Virus record (IMG/VR): IMGVR_UViG_3300020608_000013
Coordinates: 62,001 to 126,000 of that record
Source: a virus
Length of the DNA: 64,000 bases
Direction: 5' to 3' (one strand)
This document shows positions 5,112 through 63,500 of this stretch, piece by piece. A program made the translations under genes and the position numbers. The notes beneath the pieces are model-generated. The model was given only the letters and a program-made list of their open reading frames with translations. It did no database searches and was not told the origin of the DNA. The stretch's first letter is position 1. Every line of letters begins with the position of its first letter.

Positions 5112-7124
5112 ATGGCTTTACCTCCAAATGTTGAAGGCATTGAATGCCGCTTTGTTGTCCCTGTTTCTCCTAAAAAATATGGAGAGGATGACGTACATAT
5201 TATCAAAGAATTAATTCATTATAAAGATGGGACTACTAAACCAAACGTCCGTGTTATTAAAGGTTATAAAAGACCTTATTGGATCACTAAACCTCATTTA
5301 CGTAACTACAACGACAACCGAGAATGGGGACGAATGGAAGAAGTTGATAAGTATGTCGCACAAGACAAAGATTTAATCAACGACGCTGGCAATCGATTAC
5401 AAATCTATGGTAAAAATAAATATAAAGTTTTTAAATCCCCTTATTTGTTCGGCGCAAAGACCTCTGCGTCAGTGTATATCAAACACGCTTATCGGAAACG
5501 ATTTGCTAACATAAAAGAAACACCGTTTAACATTGGTTATCTGGATACTGAGGCAGACTTAGATCGTCCTACATATGTCGCCTATAATCTAAAAACGTAT
5601 AAATTATTGAAAAACACCACTGATTTAGACGAGCTTAAAAAATGGTCTGGGCTTTCTGATAAAGTGTTCAATCTCTTCATCTCTTTCGATGAAGAGTACT
5701 GGTTAGAATTTTTAAAAGATAGTTTAAAGAAGAAAAGAATTACGAACGAGATATACAACAAATTCTTAAACGTGCGGTTACGGAAACATTCACCAATCTC
5801 AATTCTAACCTATGTCACTACAGAAGGCGCTTATGCTTTTGTCGACGAACGCTACCTAAAGAAACAGAATTTAACCGTCGAAGAGATTAACGCGTACACG
5901 AAAGAAAAGATTGACGAAAAGAAAGCAGAGTTTAGTAAGGAAAACAAAGATAAGAATGGTTGGGTGTGGACTAGAGATATAAGTATAAACACAATCGCTT
6001 GTAAGGGTGAGGGCGACATACTGGAAAAAGCCTTCGCCACTATACATAAAAGTAAAATAGATTTACTAGCGATATGGAACATCGCTTACGACATGCCCTC
6101 TATGTTAAGAGCCTGCGCCATTAACGGATTAGAACCTAAACATTTATTCAGCGACCCCTCCGTACCTGAAGAGATGCGTCATTTCAAGTGGTGTCTTGGT
6201 CCGTTGAAGAAAGTAAGTCGGTCAGGTCAAGTAAAGCGTTACGATAAACAAGAACAGTGGCATACGGCTGAATTAACCGCAGGGTTCTATTTCATTGACC
6301 AGATGTGTTCTTACAGTGCCATTCGATTAGGTTCACCTAAAGAGCAATTCTATAACGTAGATGCTATTGCAAACAAACTACTAGGCATGGGGAAACTTTA
6401 CCTCGAAGTCGACGAGGGCATTTACCCAGGGTCTATTGAATGGCACTCTTTCTTAACCAACAACCACTTTAAAGAATATACGGCTTACGCGTTCTTCGAT
6501 GTCATAGTCATGTTATTAATGAATGACTACACTAGAGACCTCGATCTACTATTACCCACTTTCGTCAACAACTCACAGATACGTTCTTTCACTACGAGGA
6601 CACAGATGTTATCCGACAACTTCCAGACATGGCTGATGGATAACGAGAACGCTGCGCTAGGTGCGGCAGGGCTATTATCCGTTTACCAAAAACTTATACC
6701 GAATGTTGATTTAGATGATTGTAATCTACAATTAAGGGGCATTATTGTCAATCTAGATGTGTCGTTAGTACGATATAAGCACCGTAGTATGTTTGAAGAC
6801 GCACCTCACTTAAAGTCAACGGTACGGCGATTTGCGTTCGATATGGATGCCGTCTCCGCATACTTATCAGCTATTGTTCGTAGTAACCTTTCAAGAGAAA
6901 CTTGTCTCTACGAGACTTATGCAATCGATGGTAAATCTACTTACGATATACGGCGAGCAGGGCTTGACCTTTTAATGGGTCATGTGAGCGCCATCGATTT
7001 CTGTACAAATATGTTTAATTTCCCCACCATAACAGAATTGTGTACTGAATATGAAAAAGAAATAGCGCTACTAGATGAAAAGAAAACCGATGACGTACCT
7101 GACTTCAGCGGATGGTTTAACTGA
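5112..7124 (+). CDS. B-family DNA polymerase, exonuclease domain and palm motif A (N-terminal half)
   Basis: The 670-residue protein carries the three exonuclease motifs of B-family polymerases: GYLDTEAD (D145, E147), WNIAYDMP (N323, D327) and YAFFDVIVML (Y459, D463). Near the C-terminus is palm motif A, FAFDMDAVSAYLSAI (D579, S582, Y584), the DxxSLYPS equivalent. Only about 85 residues follow, and neither motif B (NSLYG) nor motif C (GDTDS) is present, so this gene cannot make a complete polymerase. The missing palm and fingers motifs are found in the 709-residue product of 40115-42244. AAGG about 9 nt before the ATG supports the start. It converges with the RNA polymerase gene at 7117, with an 8-nt overlap. 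Expected role: proofreading and half of the active site of the replicative polymerase. Confidence 0.85.
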   Translation: MALPPNVEGIECRFVVPVSPKKYGEDDVHIIKELIHYKDGTTKPNVRVIKGYKRPYWITKPHLRNYNDNREWGRMEEVDKYVAQDKDLINDAGNRLQIYGKNKYKVFKSPYLFGAKTSASVYIKHAYRKRFANIKETPFNIGYLDTEADLDRPTYVAYNLKTYKLLKNTTDLDELKKWSGLSDKVFNLFISFDEEYWLEFLKDSLKKKRITNEIYNKFLNVRLRKHSPISILTYVTTEGAYAFVDERYLKKQNLTVEEINAYTKEKIDEKKAEFSKENKDKNGWVWTRDISINTIACKGEGDILEKAFATIHKSKIDLLAIWNIAYDMPSMLRACAINGLEPKHLFSDPSVPEEMRHFKWCLGPLKKVSRSGQVKRYDKQEQWHTAELTAGFYFIDQMCSYSAIRLGSPKEQFYNVDAIANKLLGMGKLYLEVDEGIYPGSIEWHSFLTNNHFKEYTAYAFFDVIVMLLMNDYTRDLDLLLPTFVNNSQIRSFTTRTQMLSDNFQTWLMDNENAALGAAGLLSVYQKLIPNVDLDDCNLQLRGIIVNLDVSLVRYKHRSMFEDAPHLKSTVRRFAFDMDAVSAYLSAIVRSNLSRETCLYETYAIDGKSTYDIRRAGLDLLMGHVSAIDFCTNMFNFPTITELCTEYEKEIALLDEKKTDDVPDFSGWFN

Positions 7125-11312: not shown

Positions 11313-11719
11313 AAAGGCAACACCATGTTACTAATAGAGATTTTAGTAACGGTATTAATCTAAAGCACTACGTTAACGAGGTATTAGGGTCTGTAAATGT
11401 TAAAAGTAGGACGGATCGTCAGATCATTATGAATGACATGTATCTCCATACGTTCAACATCTACCCTGCGTTAAAACCTGATAGAGTGTTAGGTTTTGCA
11501 GCTCTCCATGAGGCAGAGACCAACATCAACGACCACTTGTTAAACATGTATCACAGGGATTATTTAGACTACCAAATAAAACAACTTTGGGGCTACACAT
11601 TCTCAGAATACATGGATTTAACTTACTCGTATACAAAAAAATTAAACATGTTAAGTGAAGAGGAACTCCAACGGCGTTCCTTAAGAGAGCAACTACTTAC
11701 TGAAAACATGGGAGACTAA
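11234..11719 (+). CDS. Downstream ORF, probably expressed by -1 frameshift from the preceding gene
   Basis: The first ATG of this frame is at 11429, giving 96 residues, but it has no SD at a usable distance. The frame is open upstream to the stop at 11231-11233, that is across the last 79 nt of the 473-residue gene and the 116-nt gap after its TAG. It is in the -1 frame relative to that gene, so a -1 shift would give a fusion adding about 140 residues, the logic of tail assembly chaperones (lambda G/GT). I see no ideal X-XXY-YYZ heptamer; CTT-TTT-ATA (11259-11267) and GCA-AAG (11289-11294) are the nearest. Alternatively a mini-ORF at 11397-11432 with AGGG before it ends in ATGA overlapping the 11429 ATG and could deliver ribosomes. 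A 15-bp terminator follows. Confidence 0.55.
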   Translation, partial: SYSVGLHAAFYTTSFGTISKDGPPRLERQHHVTNRDFSNGINLKHYVNEVLGSVNVKSRTDRQIIMNDMYLHTFNIYPALKPDRVLGFAALHEAETNINDHLLNMYHRDYLDYQIKQLWGYTFSEYMDLTYSYTKKLNMLSEEELQRRSLREQLLTENMGD

Positions 11720-11722
11720 ATT

Positions 11723-11758
11723 AACAACACACACTACCAGAATGTAGTGTGTGTTGTT
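11723..11758. terminator. Terminator stem-loop between convergent genes
   Basis: A 15-bp perfect stem (11723-11737 with 11744-11758) and 6-nt loop CAGAAT lie between the stop at 11719 and the convergent Nudix gene ending at 11765. Confidence 0.8.
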
Positions 11759-11764
11759 ATTGTA

Positions 11765-12196
11765 TTACCGATCGGCACTTTCAACTACGGCTTTCCAAAT
11801 AGCGGAAGCGCGTACCACATCAGAACTATGTCCCGATTTATTGAAATTATAATAGGCTTCTTTATAATCCACCCACATGGTCTTCATAGTATCCATGTCT
11901 CTATTGTTGGCAACTACGCTATTCCCAACGTAACGACTATAGCAGAAGCGTGTATACGTCTCTTCCTTAGCGTTTCGATAAGCGCGACCTTTATGGAATA
12001 TATCGAGTGTTACTACGTTATCGATCTCAACAAGCGCTTCTTCAAGAACTTCAGCGCGTGCCGCTTTAGCTAACGACCCGTGATCACTAATACCACCACC
12101 AGGTAGTGTTGTATAAGACTCCTCGCCCTCACTACCAACAACAAGTAAAACCTGACCTTGATCGTTAAGGACAACAGTCTCTACTCTAAATCTCAT
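11765..12196 (-). CDS. Nudix hydrolase-like protein with degenerate Nudix box
   Basis: The 143-residue protein has the Nudix fold order: an N-terminal strand VETVVLNDQGQVLLV, then LPGGGISDHGS, then the helix AEVLEEALVEI. Aligned to GX5EX7REUXEEXGU, the metal-binding E, E and E of the REUXEE helix are kept, but the first Glu is Gly, the Arg is Ala and the late Gly is Leu. A metal site may therefore survive while substrate handling is altered. Substrates in the family include NTPs, ADP-ribose, NAD and mRNA caps; none can be picked here. AGGTG is 7 nt before the ATG, which is one base after the helicase stop, so the two genes form one transcript. Confidence 0.7.
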   Translation of the reverse strand: MRFRVETVVLNDQGQVLLVVGSEGEESYTTLPGGGISDHGSLAKAARAEVLEEALVEIDNVVTLDIFHKGRAYRNAKEETYTRFCYSRYVGNSVVANNRDMDTMKTMWVDYKEAYYNFNKSGHSSDVVRASAIWKAVVESADR

Positions 12197-12197
12197 C

Positions 12198-13673
12198 TTA
12201 TTTCACCTTCTTATCTTTCTTAAGGGGCGGTGCTCCGTAATAACAAATACGTTTAACACGCTCCTCCATTAATACAATTTTATCGTAATGATATTGTACT
12301 TGTTTAGCAATATCGAGACAATATAAATAACTAAAAAACAACTCGCGCCCTTTAATAGGTCTAGGACGATAAAGCGCTTGTAAATTACTAGACGCTTTAG
12401 ATAACGAGGTTGTCATAATAGCTGATGTTAAATTAGGTATGTCTACTAGTTCGCCAGATTTCGTTAATGTAGACACACATATATCAGTGTTATAAAGGTT
12501 AGCTTCAGGCTCACCTTGCACAAAACGCGTGACGCTCAATTTAGGGTATCGGTTGGCCAAATGGTCAATAATAGCGTCAATCATTTTTAGACTACTCGCA
12601 TAGATAAGACAACAATCACCTTCTCTATAATCTTTAAAGTAAGTACTAATAACAATTTGTTCAATCATTTGCAACCATGCTTTAAGATAGCTACCTGACA
12701 TTAACCACATCTCGAAAGTAATATGATTATACTCGTCACGCCCTGGAATGCGCCAACGTATATCTTTACGCTTAACTCCTTGTAGTTTATAATTAAACGC
12801 GTTAAGTGTAATATACCTATCATAATCCTTATCGATATAACGATTCTTCGTAGGAAAATAGGTTTGATAAACCACTTCGAGCGAATCATCATCTGTGATA
12901 AATGTACCTGATAAATTAATATCGTATGGTGTATCCATAAACAACTTAATACGTGCTACTGTTTTAAACTCGCGATGTATCTCGTCAAATATAAAAGCAC
13001 CAAGCTGTAACTTTTCTAAAACATAATCTAGTTTATAGGGGTACTTATCCTCATCGCAAATTAAATCGTAACATGCTTTAAAACCTATTATTACTGCTTT
13101 AAAAGAACCTACTATTAACCTACCATTAAGATAATTATCAACCATTTTACTTGATTTAAGTATAAGTACTTCACTTTCCTTTATTGCAAAATATTTATCA
13201 AGATCAGATAACCATTTTGACACATAGGTGTTCTTTACAATAATACCTAAACGATATTCAATTAAACTAACGGCTTTCATTGCACAGTAAGTTTTACCTT
13301 TACCCATTACAAGTTCGCAAAGTTTAGAACTAATTTCACTACTACTTAAATACTTTATAGGTTTTTTCTGATAGGGTCTATCAATAAACGTTTCGTTCAT
13401 CGAATAGTCTTGCATTACCCCATAAAAACGCGAATAGTGTAATTCAATATTCGCGTTTTTAACTTCCTCTATTTCTTTAACCTCATCATACAAACCCACT
13501 GGAAAACGCAACTCCGTACCATTATCATAATAATAAGTAGTGTACGTCTCTTCCTCCCCGCTCATATGATCCTGTAATTTTAATTTACCATCGAGAAAAA
13601 ATTTAATAGCGTTGTATTCCTCACTAGTTAGTTCCTTAGCTAATACACGTTGATACCCACATTTTAAAATCAT
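12198..13673 (-). CDS. SF2 DNA/RNA helicase (DEIH box)
   Basis: The 491-residue protein has Walker A VMGKGKTYCA (G124-T128), Walker B FIFDEIHRE (D230-H233), motif III-like NLSGTF (about 257) and a C-terminal RecA domain with CLIYASSLKM (motif IV-like) and QALYRPRP near residue 435 in the place of QRxGRxxR. This is the layout of compact SF2 helicases such as T4 UvsW, which act on branched DNA in recombination-dependent replication. AGGACATATT precedes the ATG at 13673. The Nudix gene follows after one base. A terminator on the upstream beta' gene (13702-13723) separates this pair from the polymerase operon, so it should have its own promoter or depend on read-through. Confidence 0.85.
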   Translation of the reverse strand: MILKCGYQRVLAKELTSEEYNAIKFFLDGKLKLQDHMSGEEETYTTYYYDNGTELRFPVGLYDEVKEIEEVKNANIELHYSRFYGVMQDYSMNETFIDRPYQKKPIKYLSSSEISSKLCELVMGKGKTYCAMKAVSLIEYRLGIIVKNTYVSKWLSDLDKYFAIKESEVLILKSSKMVDNYLNGRLIVGSFKAVIIGFKACYDLICDEDKYPYKLDYVLEKLQLGAFIFDEIHREFKTVARIKLFMDTPYDINLSGTFITDDDSLEVVYQTYFPTKNRYIDKDYDRYITLNAFNYKLQGVKRKDIRWRIPGRDEYNHITFEMWLMSGSYLKAWLQMIEQIVISTYFKDYREGDCCLIYASSLKMIDAIIDHLANRYPKLSVTRFVQGEPEANLYNTDICVSTLTKSGELVDIPNLTSAIMTTSLSKASSNLQALYRPRPIKGRELFFSYLYCLDIAKQVQYHYDKIVLMEERVKRICYYGAPPLKKDKKVK

Positions 13674-13701
13674 AATATGTCCTAAAATAAAAAAGAGTTT
13701 G

Positions 13702-13723
13702 AACGCACCTATTCAGGTGCGTT
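13702..13723 (-). terminator. Terminator overlapping the beta' stop codon
   Basis: A 9-bp stem AACGCACCT/AGGTGCGTT (13702-13710 with 13715-13723) with loop ATTC includes the last codons of the beta' gene ending at 13709. On the minus strand it is followed by a T-rich tract (13695-13683), the form of an intrinsic terminator. Confidence 0.75.
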
Positions 13724-15661
13724 ATATTTAAACCATTCTTCTGGAGAAACCAGTACATCGTAAGCAGAATCTGGGCGATTCTCCTGAAAGTAATTCCTAG
13801 AATTGCGGTATGTCTCTCTATGGCTCTCATAAGCTAGTTGTGCTGAAAGCGATCTATTCTTAAGGACTTCACTTAATATACCCAGTGTAGGGTTATCACT
13901 ATGTCTAGCAAGACCTGTTGTGAGTCCATCACACATCATAGCATAAATAGCCACTTCAGTGATTGCTATGTTAATGGTCATCTTTTTATTAACTAGATTA
14001 TATAGTTCTAACAATACGGAATCGTATCGCCCTTTCTTCACCCTGTCCCAATACAACGATTTTTTAGACTCGAGTAATGAAGCTATCTCGTCGGCAAACA
14101 ACGACATCTTATACTCCATTGCAGGCGCTCTAAATACAGGTGAATTAAAATCCCACTCATCTAAGTGGATAATGATGCGATTACTATCACTTATTGTATA
14201 TCTTTTACGATTAACGTACCTAACTAATTCCTCGCTAAGATGTACGGCTTTCTTGGGGACTATATCGAAAAACACGTCGAGTCCATTCTCCTCATCAACT
14301 AACCCTACAGACATAACCCAAGAGATCGTGTAAATATCTAACCGACGAACATCTTTAGATAACACAATATCATTAAGCCCACGAATATCCTTTGCTTTAA
14401 ATTTAAGATAGGCGTTTTTAGATAGTTTCAAACTCTTCTTAAAGTAAAAAAGGAATGAATGCTCACGCCGCTCAAGTACTGAAGTGGCGCGATCGTCAAG
14501 TTTAATCAAGCTCCCTAAGTCTGTCGAAGCATGGTGTTTCTCTTTCAATACTTTACCCGCCACACTCGCATTTAACTGACTTATCGTCTGTACGCCTAAA
14601 TTACCACCTGTGAATAGATTATAATATAGCTCACCAAAGCAAGTGGAGCACACTTGTGTAGGGTCTTTTAACTGACACTTATGTGCTGAACGGAGTTGTA
14701 GTGTTTCCCCATACAAATGGGTATCCCCTTCCTTAATGACTTGAAGTGCATCGATAGAGGGATCGTAGTAGTACTTACCTATTAAAGAAGGAAGCATATC
14801 AAACCCCTCACCTTTATTGACTTTAATCTCTAGGTACTTTTTCGACCCACAATCACCTTTAACAATCCCTGATACAACCATCATGTTCAGTTGTGACCGT
14901 CGAGCCATATACTCAACCTGACCAAGGTCGTCTTGCTGATAGGCTAAAGCTCGTGCTGCCGTACTAGATTCTGCACACACATCATACAGTGAAGATAGTC
15001 CATTATAATACCCTGTTGTAATAGGGTATTTATAAACCATAGCTGTCGCATCAGACCGTTTACCCACTGGACCAATAATAGATAACAGTTGGTCGACTTT
15101 CGTAGATTTGATCATCACAACAAATCGAATAGGGCTTTTCTTAAACTTGTCCTTTGTAAGTATAACTTGCTTAATACGTTTTTTCGCTTCTACAGCATCG
15201 ATAACCCCTTCATTAGCTTGTTGGTTAATATATTTAATATCTTCATCCAACATAATGAGTCTGTAATCAAACCCTGATAGGGGTATCATATACTCTTCTG
15301 CGATCGAATATATTTTAGTATTAATGTCATTGACTACCCCGTAGATTAAACGGTCTATATGCTCACGATCTTCGAGCGTATTGAAGAACCCGAAAAGTCT
15401 TAACGTTGCGTAAATATCATTAATGATGGTACCGTGGGTATGCTTTGTGACCAACACATCTTTCTGAAGAACATGTGTGGTTTTAAGCGGGATTGCATAC
15501 TGCTCATGTACTTTCCAAAACACCCTTGAGTAGGTTAATCTCGATCGTGTAGTATGTATCTCACCATCATCACACTTGGCTAATAAAGTACCTTTTGGAA
15601 GATCGTCATAAATTTCTTCAGGACTTAAGTTCAACAACTCTCTAACATCAACCACACTCAT
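13709..15661 (-). CDS. RNA polymerase beta' subunit, C-terminal part (probably non-virion polymerase)
   Basis: The 650-residue protein aligns by motif with the bridge-helix to trigger-loop part of beta': TTGYYNGLSSLYDVCAESS (about 215-234), ARRSQLNMMVVSG (253-265), GDCGSKKYLEI (C271), CQLKDPTQVCSTCFGEL (C329, C338, C341, the zinc site), then GVQTISQLNASVAGKVLKEKHH (356-377), the equivalent of [21 protein letters not shown]. The catalytic DxDGD is absent, as expected for the C-terminal half of a split beta'; it is in the gene at 26897. Its ATG overlaps the stop of the beta C-terminal gene (ATGA), so the two large subunits are made in a coupled, near 1:1 way. Confidence 0.88.
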   Translation of the reverse strand: MSVVDVRELLNLSPEEIYDDLPKGTLLAKCDDGEIHTTRSRLTYSRVFWKVHEQYAIPLKTTHVLQKDVLVTKHTHGTIINDIYATLRLFGFFNTLEDREHIDRLIYGVVNDINTKIYSIAEEYMIPLSGFDYRLIMLDEDIKYINQQANEGVIDAVEAKKRIKQVILTKDKFKKSPIRFVVMIKSTKVDQLLSIIGPVGKRSDATAMVYKYPITTGYYNGLSSLYDVCAESSTAARALAYQQDDLGQVEYMARRSQLNMMVVSGIVKGDCGSKKYLEIKVNKGEGFDMLPSLIGKYYYDPSIDALQVIKEGDTHLYGETLQLRSAHKCQLKDPTQVCSTCFGELYYNLFTGGNLGVQTISQLNASVAGKVLKEKHHASTDLGSLIKLDDRATSVLERREHSFLFYFKKSLKLSKNAYLKFKAKDIRGLNDIVLSKDVRRLDIYTISWVMSVGLVDEENGLDVFFDIVPKKAVHLSEELVRYVNRKRYTISDSNRIIIHLDEWDFNSPVFRAPAMEYKMSLFADEIASLLESKKSLYWDRVKKGRYDSVLLELYNLVNKKMTINIAITEVAIYAMMCDGLTTGLARHSDNPTLGILSEVLKNRSLSAQLAYESHRETYRNSRNYFQENRPDSAYDVLVSPEEWFKYNAPE

Positions 15662-17790
15662 TTATAAACTCCTTTAGGGGGTACGTAAACAAAATCACAG
15701 CCAAAACAATTATTTATAAGCCGTACTACTTTTAATGGCCCTGTTGGTAAACGAAGTGTCTCTTTACTAACAGCACGTTCTATCCTAGCTGGGTTTGGAG
15801 CATATAGAATAGATTTAGAAATTTCATGCAGTGCTGCCGTCGTGTTGCGCGACATCTCTTCATAAGTCGTTGCAGGGCCGTTATACGCTAGACTAGCTCG
15901 ACTCTCTGACTCACCTTGGTTACGCGTAGGTACATCACGATGGGGTCTATTAGACATGGTTGACATTTTTGAGGGTATGTCATAGTGTGAAGTGGGTCGT
16001 ACAGAACATACGTTAAAATTGTCTCCTATGCGGTTTAATGCTAAGTAGTAAATAGGCGCTATAATACAAGGGTTTTTAGTAAGTCGTCTACGACCATCGT
16101 GACTCGTAAAATAGACTTGATCAACCACAGGCTTGTAAATTTTCTCCATAGCCTCCATTGCTTCGGCATGTTGGTATGGGTTGTCTATATGTAGCGGAGC
16201 TATGATGTGGATATGTAACGTCTCACCTATAACATGTACTTTCTCATCATGTGTAGCACTCACATAAACATCACTATCATCGGGACAAAAATGTGTTATG
16301 AATAGTAAGTAGTGGGTGTAGGCTTTACTCAACTTATCCTTACCTTCTCTTTGCACAAAAGCCTTAGCCTCAGCAACACTACCGAAACTACCTTCATATC
16401 TAGGCAAGCCATATATTTCACGGATAGCGCCCTCTACTTGCATAGCCATAAAAGTAACATCTTGTTCATGTAGTCTACCTATATTAGTGCGGTTTGTTGT
16501 CGCTCCACCATAAGCAACCACATCAGCTACAATACCATCTTTGGTACAAGGCATTTCACTAGCAGGTAACGCGTTACAATTGATACCTTTACCACCAATC
16601 AAATCCGTCATTTTGAAACGCACGCCCATTTCATGTATTTGTAATGTTTTAATGATTACTTGATAACCATTTATTTTCCTAACCTTATGTTGTAGAGAAA
16701 TGTTATTTTTCGGTACCGATGCAAGTAGTAATGATTTAGACCACACTAACGCAGTATGGAGTTCGTCAGTCACCGTCTCTGGTGAATATGTTAAACCATA
16801 CTCTTCAAGACCGCGATCGACAGCATATTGTAAGTTTCGCTGAAAGGTTAAGTAGGCAAGGGATAAATCATCGAGTTGCTTATGCCAATAGTTTAAACTA
16901 TTACGTACCTTAGCTTGCCGTGTGACCGTAATATCTTGAATAATGCTACCTGTAGGTGCAAGATACTCTGTATCAAAGATGACATCATGTTCTCTCGCAC
17001 GCTCCATTGTTGCGCTAATAGGTATGCCATCATATTCCTTTTTAACAGCAAGTAGACCATTCTTTACTACACCACCAATAACATCAAGCGGTCTGTATTC
17101 CTCATCGTCACCGAATATATTGGCAAGGTATGTCTCACCCCCAACATTAAATCGAGTCGTGTTGTGCGTGACGAACTTCCGTTTCTTTAATGTGTCCTCG
17201 TTGACTAGTAAAGCATCTTCATTACTTAATCGATGTGATATAAAGAGTGTGTTCAAAAGCATACCGAATGAATAATAGTCCTCGTATATCGACTGTGGTT
17301 CAATAATAGATTCGTCTTTTTCGTACACCGCTCCTATTTTTAACTTACCCTCAATTACCTCTTTATACATAAACCCAAACCTTGTATCGAAACGATCCAT
17401 ATATCTAGGTAACTCTAGTAAGCCTATATGCCTGTGCGTAAGTGAATAATAAACTGCATACGTCAATGGGTTATTTTTGGAATTAGGGTATTTCTTAACA
17501 ACATCAATTATCTTTAGATCGCAAGGCGCTCTGACACTAATCGTGGTATTACGTAGACCATCGGTGGCTGTGTTATGCCAATAAGGTATATCGACTAAAC
17601 CACCATTCACTGTAGATAACGATAAACCTTGGCTACGCTGCAACATACTCATAGCTGCCCTCGGTGAAGAACAATACCTCGACCAAGGGTAAGTGCCGTC
17701 AATATGATGGGCACGTATACCCACCTCCGTAGTTAACGGATTATTCAAACGCTCTTTTACCTGTTTTTCTAATACATTGTAGTCGTACAT
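15658..17790 (-). CDS. RNA polymerase beta subunit, C-terminal part (probably non-virion polymerase)
   Basis: The 710-residue protein has beta motifs in order: LSNEDALLVNED at 188-199 (E. coli GYNFEDSILVSE), and GVRFKMTDLIGGKG then ASEMPCTKDGIVADVV and TTNRTNIGR at 389-439 (E. coli GDKMAGRHGNKG, EDMPYDENGTPVDIV, PSRMNIGQ). It lacks the N-terminal lobe, which must be a separate gene not seen in this window. About 700 residues fits the beta C-terminal subunit I recall for the phiKZ non-virion polymerase. AAAAGGA lies 9 nt before the ATG at 17790, inside a 15-nt palindrome shared with the divergent gene. It is followed directly by the beta' C-terminal gene. Confidence 0.88.
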   Translation of the reverse strand: MYDYNVLEKQVKERLNNPLTTEVGIRAHHIDGTYPWSRYCSSPRAAMSMLQRSQGLSLSTVNGGLVDIPYWHNTATDGLRNTTISVRAPCDLKIIDVVKKYPNSKNNPLTYAVYYSLTHRHIGLLELPRYMDRFDTRFGFMYKEVIEGKLKIGAVYEKDESIIEPQSIYEDYYSFGMLLNTLFISHRLSNEDALLVNEDTLKKRKFVTHNTTRFNVGGETYLANIFGDDEEYRPLDVIGGVVKNGLLAVKKEYDGIPISATMERAREHDVIFDTEYLAPTGSIIQDITVTRQAKVRNSLNYWHKQLDDLSLAYLTFQRNLQYAVDRGLEEYGLTYSPETVTDELHTALVWSKSLLLASVPKNNISLQHKVRKINGYQVIIKTLQIHEMGVRFKMTDLIGGKGINCNALPASEMPCTKDGIVADVVAYGGATTNRTNIGRLHEQDVTFMAMQVEGAIREIYGLPRYEGSFGSVAEAKAFVQREGKDKLSKAYTHYLLFITHFCPDDSDVYVSATHDEKVHVIGETLHIHIIAPLHIDNPYQHAEAMEAMEKIYKPVVDQVYFTSHDGRRRLTKNPCIIAPIYYLALNRIGDNFNVCSVRPTSHYDIPSKMSTMSNRPHRDVPTRNQGESESRASLAYNGPATTYEEMSRNTTAALHEISKSILYAPNPARIERAVSKETLRLPTGPLKVVRLINNCFGCDFVYVPPKGVYK

Positions 17791-40114: not shown

Positions 40115-42244
40115 CTAATAAAATCCCCCATAAATATATTCAGTCAACGTCATTTTTTCAGGTATTACAATTCCGAGAGTTTCTAATACGACGTATATAG
40201 GACTACAGGAATTTGTAATGATGCGCTCGTAGTCGATTACGCGTAGTATCTCATCTGGCATACCTTTAGTACTAATGTTTACACGCGGTAGGTCAAAATG
40301 GTTGACATCTGTCTTTTTACTAAAAGCGAGCCAGTCAACGACGTTTTCTCTAATATAAGAATCCTTTATCGTAGCTATCCACGCATTCAGTGCTGTTTTA
40401 TTAGGGAGTTTTGTCAAGACACGTACCGCAGTATAAGGTATACTACCCACATCACCTTTACTCGGTTTAAAAACTCTATCCCAAAATAAGTAGTGTAGGT
40501 AAGGCGCAGCCTCCTCCCCTAGTGCGTAAGTAAAGACAGATTTTATTTGTTTTATTTGGTAGTACTTTAAGTCAACACCTTCTTTTAAGGTGTCGTAGAT
40601 AACGCGTTCTAGTTTAGTGATTGTAGCTATTACGGTAGCGTAACGCATCATTTTGTTATTTTCAACACAATAACCAATTTCGTTCATGAGGTCGGTTCTT
40701 GTTTGAATAACTTCTTTAGGTAAGGTTGCGTTTATTAGATGTGCGCCAGATACATCGAGTTGTGTTTTTGCGAAGATGTTACCTTCAGCGATATATGTTC
40801 CGCAATAGTAGTGGTTTTTCATATTCATGGAAACGGTTAAGTGTACCCACGACATTTCACTTTTCATAGACAGCCGACCCACATCTTTTAAATCGGTGTT
40901 CATATTAATAGAGAAAACTTTTACAGCGTGGTGGATGGTTAATGTTGCTTGATAGATAATCGCACCTGCTATCGCTGCTGTTTTTGCGTTAAGACGGACA
41001 TCACCCTTAGTGTACCATGTGATAAATTCATCTACTGAAGCGCAAGAGCTGTCTGTGTTTGATACGGCAACAACACGTCGTATAAATTTAGGCATAGCGC
41101 TAACACTAGGGGGTATATTGTCGGTCATTGCAAGCCCAAAGAAATCCCAATACTTCTCTGTCACTTTCTGAATGTGCCTGCAAGTATGGTAGAGTACACC
41201 GAAAGCACCTGCCTTTTTTATCTTCTCTATATCTGTCCCAAGACCTTTAGTTTCCTCATAACAAATTTGACCTGCTAGAATACGAATAGGTTCTGAGAAT
41301 TTGTAAATTGCTTTAGTAGGTTGATCGGTATCACCATGTACCTTCACTGTCAATTCGTTTAAGAAGTTATAGATAAAGGTTTCGTTGAGTTCGCGGAGGG
41401 TTTTTAGATCGCCGTAGTAACAGAACCCTGCTCTTGAAATAGGATCGGATTTTTCCACATAGGTAAGAAAACGAGTCTCGTCAGGGTTGTTTGAGTAAAG
41501 TTTGTAACAGCGTTTCGCTTTATGCACGACATCTTCAACGGTTGGTATTTTTAATTGATAGCGTTCGATAGTATCTTTTAACGCTTTTAGCTTCTCAGGT
41601 TTTCTTTGTAAGTAACTTTCTATTGAGAGAAAGTTGACGAGTGCGTGGTCAGGTGTGAAGAATGCTAAATTACCACCAATAAAACGTTCGTTGCAAGCGT
41701 TACTTAAAGAGGTTATAGCGCGAATAGTACTAGTCATCACAGGATGTGCGCTTTGTGCGTAAAGTGACGACCCCATAACTGACATACCACCTGATATGTC
41801 TAAGAGTCCTTGTTTCACCATTTTTTGTTGAGCATACTTCATTAAGTAAGTTTTCAACATACCGTTGAGCTTGGCATCGAACATCTCACGTTTTAGTCTT
41901 TTTCGATAGGCTAATTGTTCTGTAATAAATTTTGCGACCAGTGATAGCTTGACATCAGCGGGCAGGAATAAAGAAAATGTCGCAGAGGTAATTAAACGTT
42001 TCTCCCTAATGCTTTCTAACATTAGGGAGAGTTTAGTATCTTTCTTAAGACTATCTAAATTACCGTTTACTTTTTTCTCAATTCCACGAACCATCGGGTC
42101 AATCGCTTTACGCTTCACGATTTTTTTAATGATTTCTTTATTTTCAGGTCGATACCCGTAAATTGTGTTAATCATTTTTTCTGTTTGTATATAGTACTCT
42201 TTTATAGGGTCTATATAACGGCTCAATTCGGAATCACGATTCAT
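40115..42244 (-). CDS. B-family DNA polymerase, palm motifs B and C (C-terminal half)
   Basis: The 709-residue protein carries the polymerase motifs missing from the gene at 5112. A fingers-like YRKRLKREMF (113-122) is followed by SGGMSVMGSSLYAQS (151-165, equivalent of KxxxNSLYG) and TVKVHGDTDQPTKAIY (299-314) with D305/D307, the motif C YGDTDS. No exonuclease motif or motif A is present. With 5112-7124 it makes a complete catalytic set in the correct order: Exo I-III, A | B, C. Together the two give about 1380 residues. It is the last gene of a five-gene minus-strand operon started at 44250. The two halves must associate as proteins, since they are 33 kb apart and on opposite strands. Confidence 0.8.
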   Translation of the reverse strand: MNRDSELSRYIDPIKEYYIQTEKMINTIYGYRPENKEIIKKIVKRKAIDPMVRGIEKKVNGNLDSLKKDTKLSLMLESIREKRLITSATFSLFLPADVKLSLVAKFITEQLAYRKRLKREMFDAKLNGMLKTYLMKYAQQKMVKQGLLDISGGMSVMGSSLYAQSAHPVMTSTIRAITSLSNACNERFIGGNLAFFTPDHALVNFLSIESYLQRKPEKLKALKDTIERYQLKIPTVEDVVHKAKRCYKLYSNNPDETRFLTYVEKSDPISRAGFCYYGDLKTLRELNETFIYNFLNELTVKVHGDTDQPTKAIYKFSEPIRILAGQICYEETKGLGTDIEKIKKAGAFGVLYHTCRHIQKVTEKYWDFFGLAMTDNIPPSVSAMPKFIRRVVAVSNTDSSCASVDEFITWYTKGDVRLNAKTAAIAGAIIYQATLTIHHAVKVFSINMNTDLKDVGRLSMKSEMSWVHLTVSMNMKNHYYCGTYIAEGNIFAKTQLDVSGAHLINATLPKEVIQTRTDLMNEIGYCVENNKMMRYATVIATITKLERVIYDTLKEGVDLKYYQIKQIKSVFTYALGEEAAPYLHYLFWDRVFKPSKGDVGSIPYTAVRVLTKLPNKTALNAWIATIKDSYIRENVVDWLAFSKKTDVNHFDLPRVNISTKGMPDEILRVIDYERIITNSCSPIYVVLETLGIVIPEKMTLTEYIYGGFY

Positions 42245-42260: not shown

Positions 42261-42620
42261 TTATGTTTTAACAAATTCTAATTTTAGTTTTTTCATAAGT
42301 GTTTCTAAGGCACTTATTTTTTCCTTAGTAGGTTGTATTATCTTGTAGGTAACATCTTCGTTCAAATATTCTTCAACATCGATCAACCACTCTCGTGCGA
42401 AAATTGTACCATCGTTAAATTCGATATACTCATATTCTTTGTAATTGAGGTGTGTCGTGGGCGCTATAATACTACTTATGGCAGATTGTGTTAGGTCGAT
42501 GTTACCCCCAGCTCGCATCGCTGTTTCGTAGCCGTGTAGAGCTACAACCGTTTTGATGTAACTCCCTCCAAGTATGGCAGGAGCTTTAGTTTTGAATCGA
42601 TAGGTTTTCTTACGTTCCAT
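42261..42620 (-). CDS. Small hypothetical protein before the polymerase half
   Basis: The 119-residue basic protein has no recognised motif. It overlaps the upstream gene by one base (TAATG) and lies 16 nt before the DNA polymerase half. Coupled expression suggests a replication context only. Confidence 0.65.
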   Translation of the reverse strand: MERKKTYRFKTKAPAILGGSYIKTVVALHGYETAMRAGGNIDLTQSAISSIIAPTTHLNYKEYEYIEFNDGTIFAREWLIDVEEYLNEDVTYKIIQPTKEKISALETLMKKLKLEFVKT

Positions 42621-60582: not shown

Positions 60583-63500
60583 TTATTTTAAGTAATTGCT
60601 AGAAGTTATCTTGCTAAATTTCTTACAAATGAAGACAGACATGCCTAGTAATTTAGCAGAGTTCACAATACGCGCCGCATCACTACGACCACCAAACCGT
60701 AGATCAATTTTAGTCCCGTCTTCGGCTTCCACGTTATCTGGGTATACTTCAGCGATAGTTGCCTTCAACTGATGTGAGATAACCAGTTTGTCTACCGTGT
60801 TAATCGGGATGTCTTTTACCAGAAATATTTTAAGTTCAACCGTATTAGGTGGGAGAGGTTGCCCTTTTGTACGATAACGGCTATCAACAAAACCTGTTAA
60901 AGTTTTGTCTTTAGTACGCTCTTTTAACTCTATATCGGCTTGCTCAACAACTTTCCTTAATTGAGGGCTTAAATCTTCTAACGGTGCGTTATACCGAGCC
61001 TCAATACGATCAACGGTGGCGAGATATTTAGCAGTTGGTTTGTCACTTGCACGATGTTTGATTAAATCAGAAGTCTCTTTATCAAACATCTCTAATGTAC
61101 TAATCGCACTACTTTCAATATACATTAAAACATCGTCAGGTTTAAGGGATTGACCGACCTTCACAATCTTGCGAATTGTATAATCGGCAGGTACTTGTAT
61201 ATTACGTTCGTATATTTTATGCGTCTTAAGTCGTTTAGTGAGCGCCGTAGAGACTGTTACCGAATCCTCCCAAGTGATGCGTTCTTCAGTATAAGCCATC
61301 GTAGCTGTTAAGTAGGGCAGGTAGATTAGTTTAGCAGGGTCGTGTGGATCGGGTTTAAAATAGCTTTTGTTATAGGCAAGCGCATCATAAGGCTCTACTT
61401 TATCACCGACCTTCAAACTCGTTGTTATGTCATGAATATAATTACTCCCTTCAAAAGACCCGTAGTGTCTACCTAAGAAAACATCTTCTGTAGTTCCGTC
61501 TTCGTACTCGACTACTAACCCTTTATCAGAAACCTCTTTAACAACACCTTTACCTTTTGCGTGTCTAGCATGTATTTTATTCACACGGTAAGGGATAGTT
61601 TTCTCAGCCCCTGTACGCACTATAGGGGACTCGTAACCACTTTTCGGTGCGATGACGTGCGACTCCATAATGGTCGCCATATTTGCCCGTTTAGGGTCGT
61701 CTTGCGTAGAGAAGGGGTTTTTCATATTACTGGTCGATATGAGTCGATTGGCAGTCTCTGGGTTATCATCCCATTTCTGTCCTTGCCCACGTAATGTTTT
61801 AAAATCAGGGTCGTTTGTTAAGTATTTAACAATACCTACATCAGAGGAGTCAACTGTCGCTTCTGAATAAATACCCTTTTGTGTTTTATGTACTGCGCGA
61901 AGTTCTTCAGGTATAGCGTCTTTAGACCGCCCCCCTTCACCAACCATTGTGACCACTTCCTTAGACTTGATGTTTTGGAAGGGGTTGATGTCACGCTCTA
62001 GTTCTACACAAGGGTCTTGCATTATCGTCAACCATGTTGCGTTAGGCTTCATTTCTGGTTTTTGACGACGTTTAGCTTTCCTATTCTTGTAATCCTCGAC
62101 CGATTTAAACAATTCTTTATAAGCGATGCTCGGTAGACGTTCATAACCTCTAACGCGTGACATTAACTCACTGTTAGGGTCTTCATGGTAATCGAAAGTT
62201 AATAGTTCTACAGCACGTACAAGTAACGGAATGAACTCGTGGGGTTCGCCCATAGTAATTAACAAGTCTCTTGAGATCGGGTCTATGAATAGTTCGTTAT
62301 AAGTCTCTATTTTCACCAGACCTCGCGCTTCTACGTTTAAGGTGTTTAGTATACCTAATAACCCTTCAGGGGTGTCGTAGTGAGCGACATTGTAATTTAA
62401 GTTGGTTTTGTTGTAGGCGGCTAACCCGCTAAATAATAACTCCTCTTGAAAGTTTATTCGGTTAAATATTAGGTGGTAGTCTTTAAAGGTTATTGCATAT
62501 TGATCAGGTTTTAATACATATTCCTCACCAACAGGTTTTACCGTTACATCTCGTGCAAAATGTTCAATACAGTAAGATAGCCCTTTTAAAGTCGCTAAGA
62601 TTATAATGACAGGGATATTTCTCCCCATAAGTTTAACGGTTGCGTACTCTGTGAGCGAGTGTGTATCGAAGCGTAAAACATCCGTTAAATGTTTTTTATC
62701 AACGTTGTTGTTTTCGTTTAAATAAGTGACTACCCCATCGTTGTTTAAGAAAAGTAATTGCCCTCCGTTATTAGTAACACCTATGAAAGTACCGTACTTT
62801 TTTTCAGGCTTGGTGATGTCTTTTGTAGTCAACGTTTGACGTGTTTTATGGTTAAATGTTAAACGTGTGTCGTCACTAGTCTCGATCCAGTCAAATGATT
62901 TTGCTAATGCGCTATAGTGTCGACCCTGTTGTTTAAAGTTGTTGTCGAAAACAGGTGTTGGGTTAAGTGAATAGTTTTCATATTTTAAACTAGTTTGGTT
63001 CACCGTTTTCTTTAACCATACCGCATAGTTATTTGCCTTACGAATACCTCGTTGTACAAATATTTTACTGACTGCGCTAGAGATAACGACATTTTCAGGA
63101 CCAATTTTTCTAAGCGGCATATCGACGGTTTGCTTACGCATCCGTGATAGATTACCGTTATTCATGAAAACACCGTCTTCATCTACCACAGGTAGCTGTA
63201 TAGTGAGTGTCGTTGCCTCGCCTTGTATGGGTTTATACCTTACTTTATACAACATGTAATTATCCTTAACAGATTTGACATGTTGTTTACTATACCCTTC
63301 TAAAACCCAACCACCTCGTTGAATGTGTGAAATGGTGTTAACCATATCCTTTTCCAACAGTTCTTCGATGTACTGTGTATTATCGTTAAATAACGATGAC
63401 TTTAACATCGACGCTTTAGTCACGCCTTTTATTTTAGGGAGTTTATCCCCTTTTAGTATAAGTTCGTCAGGCTTGATAGCAGTCAAATCATCTAGTCGGA

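Follow-up and report, generated by a model that had tools for sequence, protein, structure and literature searches.

Two distant genes of a giant-phage record very probably encode a divergent split family B DNA polymerase with replaced residues in its C-terminal half

The window analysed here, a stretch of 64,000 nucleotides corresponding to positions 62001 to 126000 of a virus record of 212,020 bases (IMGVR_UViG_3300020608_000013), carries two full-length open reading frames, for proteins of 670 and 709 aa, that lie 33 kb apart on opposite strands of the same record and are convergently oriented. Both are present where a first-pass annotation, made from the letters alone, had placed the two parts of a single DNA polymerase. 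The features discussed below, in window coordinates, are as follows.

5112..7124, plus strand: putative N-terminal half of a split family B DNA polymerase (670 aa; phrog_3011; hhalign to T4 gp43; Foldseek to RB69), containing an N-terminal domain, a 3'-5' exonuclease (Exo I-III) and palm motif A (D577, D579, Y584)
6840..6848, plus strand: motif A codons 577-579 (D-M-D), invariant in 42 representatives; D579 corresponds to T4 D408 / RB69 D411
40115..42244, minus strand: putative C-terminal half of the polymerase (709 aa; Pfam PF20286; phrog_2927; hhalign to T4 gp43; AlphaFold), containing fingers (R114, K118), motif B, a helical insert, motif C, the KxY region (477-479) and the thumb
41789..41815, minus strand: actual motif B, residues 144-152 (K144 Q G L L148 D I S151 G152), from the family alignment
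41324..41332, minus strand: D305-T306-D307, earlier claimed as motif C; unconserved, a loop in the model
41048..41062, minus strand: actual motif C, residues 395-399, SNTDS in place of SDTDS; D398 corresponds to T4 D620 and N396 replaces T4 D618
42261..42620, minus strand: 119-aa gene immediately upstream of that for the C half, with a weak phrog_3235 match (E=2.2e-4)

The 670-aa protein is a member of phrog_3011, annotated 'DNA polymerase' (E=4.9e-121). Its 709-aa counterpart scores 448.6 bits against Pfam PF20286, divDNApol ('Divergent Family B DNA polymerase'), far above the curated cut-off of 25.7 bits and over nearly the full length of the model (residues 4-697 on profile positions 3-695 of 705), and it also falls into phrog_2927 (E=1.4e-138). 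Its membership of PF20286 rests on this full-length profile, a DTD motif C being a typical feature of the family and not a criterion for it; as had been claimed, the protein is without an exonuclease. Features typical of phiKZ-like jumbo phages are also present in the record, namely several multisubunit RNA polymerase subunits (identified by phrog), a tail sheath and a major head protein, both of phiKZ type, a DnaB-like helicase and a UvsX-like recombinase. The 119-aa gene probably corresponds to PHIKZ049, a small conserved gene that lies upstream of the polymerase gene in phiKZ, next to PHIKZ050; a small SH3-fold neighbour of the polymerase gene has been described (PMC7824862).

The motifs that the first-pass annotation had read in the 670-aa protein, Exo I (D145/E147), Exo II (N323/D327), Exo III (Y459/D463) and motif A (D579), are borne out by the family alignment, in which the Exo I-III residues together with D577, D579 and Y584 are invariant across 42 diverse N-half representatives. 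A profile of the N half aligned to residues 107-429 of T4 gp43 (hhalign, E=1e-13), with D579 placed on T4 D408, and this alignment stops at residue 429, that is, before motif B. The same profile retrieved RB69 polymerase from a PDB set (E=6.6e-6). A stretch of about 60 extra residues follows Exo I in this protein (residues 155-225; window positions ~5574-5786); it is absent from 18 aligned relatives and is poorly predicted.

The profile of the C half aligned to T4 gp43 residues 610-753 (hhalign, E=1.3e-9), including motif C, where S395-N396-T397-D398-S399 fell on T4 G617-D618-T619-D620-S621. Alignment of this half to the T4 fingers (residues 451-494) was weak; one profile (A5) stopped at the fingers and a broader one (A2) extended past them. 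Matches of the C-terminal family as a whole to Pol zeta/delta and T4 were limited to the fingers, motif B and what follows. Since the two halves are complementary and collinear on T4/RB69 gp43, the polymerase is broken between motifs A and B, where the first-pass annotation had put the break.

Fold comparisons gave the same picture, in keeping with the earlier expectation that both proteins would match RB69 polymerase: RB69/T4 polymerase was the top PDB match for each of the two single-chain models, that of the 709-aa protein included. The N-half model matched RB69 gp43 with a Foldseek E=2.9e-12, and the C-half model, which has a mean pLDDT of 85.6, with E=1.8e-5, yet the global superposition of the latter was poor (TM 0.29). 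For the N half, the N-terminal and exonuclease domains were modelled with confidence. Residues 521-603, the palm segment that contains motif A, reached a confidence of only 30-42 and are thus not predicted to fold alone. Such low confidence would be as expected for a palm strand modelled without its partner, but is not proof of one.

The assignment of motifs in the C half required correction. Motif C had been read as GDTDQ at D305/D307, but these columns are unconserved, aspartate occurring at the first in 5 and at the second in 7 of the 57 representatives. The actual motif, ninety residues further on, lies in a β-hairpin formed by residues 392-396 and 399-402 of the AlphaFold model, and is easily overlooked because it reads NTD rather than DTD; among 122 homologues the sequence is SDTDS in 111 and GDTDS in nine. 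Motif B had been placed about ten residues off, at residues 151-165. In the family alignment it spans K144-G152, with K144, S151 and G152 invariant, and the asparagine equivalent to T4 N561 is Leu148 here. The proposal of metal ligands drawn from two chains is supported by the comparisons of family, profile and fold, although it is D398, and not D305/D307, that the second chain would contribute.

Both genes very probably encode the two subunits of a phiKZ-type split family B replicative DNA polymerase, of which this phage has a fast-evolving member with what would be a composite active site. The 670-aa subunit would comprise the N-terminal domain and the exonuclease for proofreading, together with the first strand of the palm, which bears the catalytic D579; the 709-aa subunit would add the fingers, the remainder of the palm with D398, and the thumb. 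On association of the two chains, D579 and D398 would jointly coordinate the pair of catalytic Mg2+ ions at a single site. The assembly, the shared metal binding and the proofreading activity are inferred.

This arrangement is not peculiar to the present record. Relatives of the two halves were found in 276 and 274 phage records, with a nearly identical make-up of hosts, and in all 19 phage records tested both halves were present, always as separate genes. The two genes are on opposite strands, convergent and about 27-50 kb apart in 16 of these records (distances in FLC9 and PCH45 being counted across the record ends); in phiKZ, PA7 and one Staphylococcus phage both halves are on one strand. 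No naturally fused open reading frame was seen among more than 100 loci. A complete second polymerase elsewhere in the genome, which the first-pass annotation had named as evidence against its reading, was not found: outside the pair, the 212-kb record, which may be an incomplete genome, gave no match to PF00136, PF00476 or PF07733 and hence no further DNA polymerase of family B, A or C, nor did PHROGs reveal one among about 50 of its large open reading frames.

The split polymerase of the phiKZ giant-phage group has been on record since 2012. The same split has been published for OBP, SPN3US (gp18/gp44) and phiKZ relatives (PMC5105663, PMC5694885), and the phiKZ polymerase is likewise stated to be split (PMC5105663). 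OBP_055 and OBP_099 are both annotated as DNA polymerase; SPN3US_0044 was included in our N-half alignment, and the SPN3US C-half sequence (positions 11574-13718 of its record) is taken to be gp18. The phiKZ-type pairs (OBP gp55/gp99, SPN3US gp18/gp44, and phiKZ gp050 with the gene at 77975-79867) belong to the same two families and are broken between motifs A and B as here, and in most members the genes are convergent and some 30 kb apart, again as here. The idea of one family B polymerase in two genes is thus upheld by our comparisons, but it is already published and so not new. What sets the present pair apart from the phiKZ-type enzymes is an identity of about 25-32% to the nearest members, its SNTDS motif C, the replacement of the motif B asparagine by leucine, of the KxY lysine by asparagine and of K499 by serine, and the additional stretch in the N half. 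The pair is ordinary in kind, a divergent addition to a published split polymerase whose active-site variation deserves mention.

Other replicative polymerases offer partial parallels. In T4/RB69 gp43 the domain order is that of the joined halves (D579 and D398 corresponding to T4 D408 and D620), but gp43 is a single polypeptide and is without the long helical insert found before motif C in the phiKZ-type enzymes (PMC7824862). The gp43A/gp43B proteins of T4-like Acinetobacter phages (Acj9, ZZ1 and fHyAci03) are also of family B and were independently split between motifs A and B; unlike the pair described here they are T4-type, do not belong to the divDNApol family and have their two gene pieces on one strand, separated by about 2 kb. 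In fHyAci03 (L200:3992-8679) gp43 is divided at about T4 residue 500, the first piece matching T4 residues 4-500. The split minimal DNA polymerase III of group 2.2 jumbo phages likewise has its catalytic module in two distant genes, but its fold is unrelated (family C type) (PMC7824862).

New here are four replaced residues in the C half at columns that are otherwise invariant. N148L, D396N, K477N and K499S are confined to this protein, the other 121 of 122 C-half homologues having N148, D396, K477 and K499; both aspartates of the motif C DTD are accordingly present in 121 of the 122, and here the first is lost and the second kept (N396-T397-D398). Since a one-residue insertion adjoins K476, the K477N change in the KxY region could be partly a matter of alignment. 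R114 and K118 of the fingers, K144 of motif B, D398 and Y479 are retained. The nearest relatives found, at 29-32% identity, are all canonical at these positions. Close relatives carrying D396N were not found by scans with the single proteins, and alignment scans of viral and genome contigs, among which very near records may be missing, gave only relatives with the canonical DTD.

The replacements are accompanied by rapid divergence. Of 39 near-invariant columns this protein keeps only 30, whereas the representative that comes second in divergence keeps 36. The terminal branch of the present protein in the C-half tree measures 1.65 against a median of 0.41. Relative to the median in a common set of phages, branch length is 3.1-fold for the C half (40115-42244), 2.7-fold for the N half (5112-7124), 4.3-fold for an RNA polymerase subunit (15658-17790), 2.7-fold for DnaB (L175:9333-10856) and 1.1-fold for the tail sheath. 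An acceleration specific to the polymerase was considered and rejected, as the RNA polymerase and DnaB are accelerated too and the tail sheath is not. In this lineage, then, the replication and transcription genes have diverged rapidly as a set, both polymerase halves to a similar degree, and similarly long branches for the two halves are expected of one enzyme.

Several other explanations could be given for these two genes. That a single polymerase gene was broken by an error of sequencing or assembly, or by recent insertion of a mobile element, has a negligible chance of being correct. The divided gp43 of Acinetobacter phages, with its neighbouring 43A and 43B genes, does show that secondary breaks at this place occur, but here the parts are 33 kb apart on opposite strands, an arrangement shared by 16 of the 19 independently sequenced phages described above, and each half has a family-wide, full-length profile. 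It is highly improbable, too, that the 709-aa protein by itself amounts to a whole polymerase core and the 670-aa protein is a stand-alone proofreading exonuclease that docks onto it. This follows a published description in which the group-1 polymerase lacks a fused exonuclease, the exonuclease being encoded apart from it (PMC7824862). Against it stand the invariance of D577, D579 and Y584 in the exonuclease-bearing protein, the continuous alignment running from the exonuclease to motif A that puts D579 on T4 D408, and the start of the C-terminal family only after motif A. The family data thus put the break through the palm, and the motif A evidence argues, contrary to that account of a separate accessory exonuclease (PMC7824862), that the exonuclease-bearing protein would also supply a palm strand.

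The four substitutions could mean that polymerase activity is weakened or lost. In its strongest form this would make the second subunit catalytically dead in this lineage, the genome being replicated by a host polymerase or an unrecognised one, and the pair surviving as an exonuclease or a scaffold; the replacements seen in just one of 122 homologues, the reduced number of conserved columns and the long branch all point this way. We nevertheless regard it as improbable, as both open reading frames are uninterrupted, D579, D398, K144, R114 and K118 are retained, the acceleration extends beyond the polymerase, and a substitute polymerase was not found in the 212-kb record. In RB69 the first motif C aspartate is reportedly less critical than D411 and D623. 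Primer-independent PolBs are without this aspartate yet highly active (PMC7544198), for which reason we judge D396N to be tolerable. Given that the two essential carboxylates and the triphosphate-binding R114, K118 and K144 persist and that the record yielded no other polymerase, the four replacements probably alter but do not abolish synthesis. The broader proposition, that in this lineage the first motif C aspartate and three further invariant residues disappeared from the second subunit alongside rapid change of all the replication and transcription genes, leaving a polymerase with an altered metal site or one that no longer serves bulk synthesis, appears doubtful.

If, as in the preferred reading of a two-subunit enzyme, the two catalytic aspartates of this replicative polymerase are divided between separately encoded proteins, it offers a stringent test of obligate co-assembly; the split polymerase belongs to a widespread group of giant phages. 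The natural variant described here, without the first motif C aspartate, should be useful for asking which palm residues are dispensable.

Some further observations concern the surroundings of these genes. Group I introns (Rfam RF00028) were seen at or near motif A of the N-half gene in at least six viral contigs, some of which carry two. Genes for phiKZ-type polymerases also occur on contigs of 140-286 kb within bacterial assemblies (Caballeronia, Paraburkholderia, Rhodoferax and others), which are probably co-assembled free phage genomes. In the present record, a long same-strand run of open reading frames of ~250-310 aa occupies the region at ~160-206 kb, and is perhaps a paralogous array.
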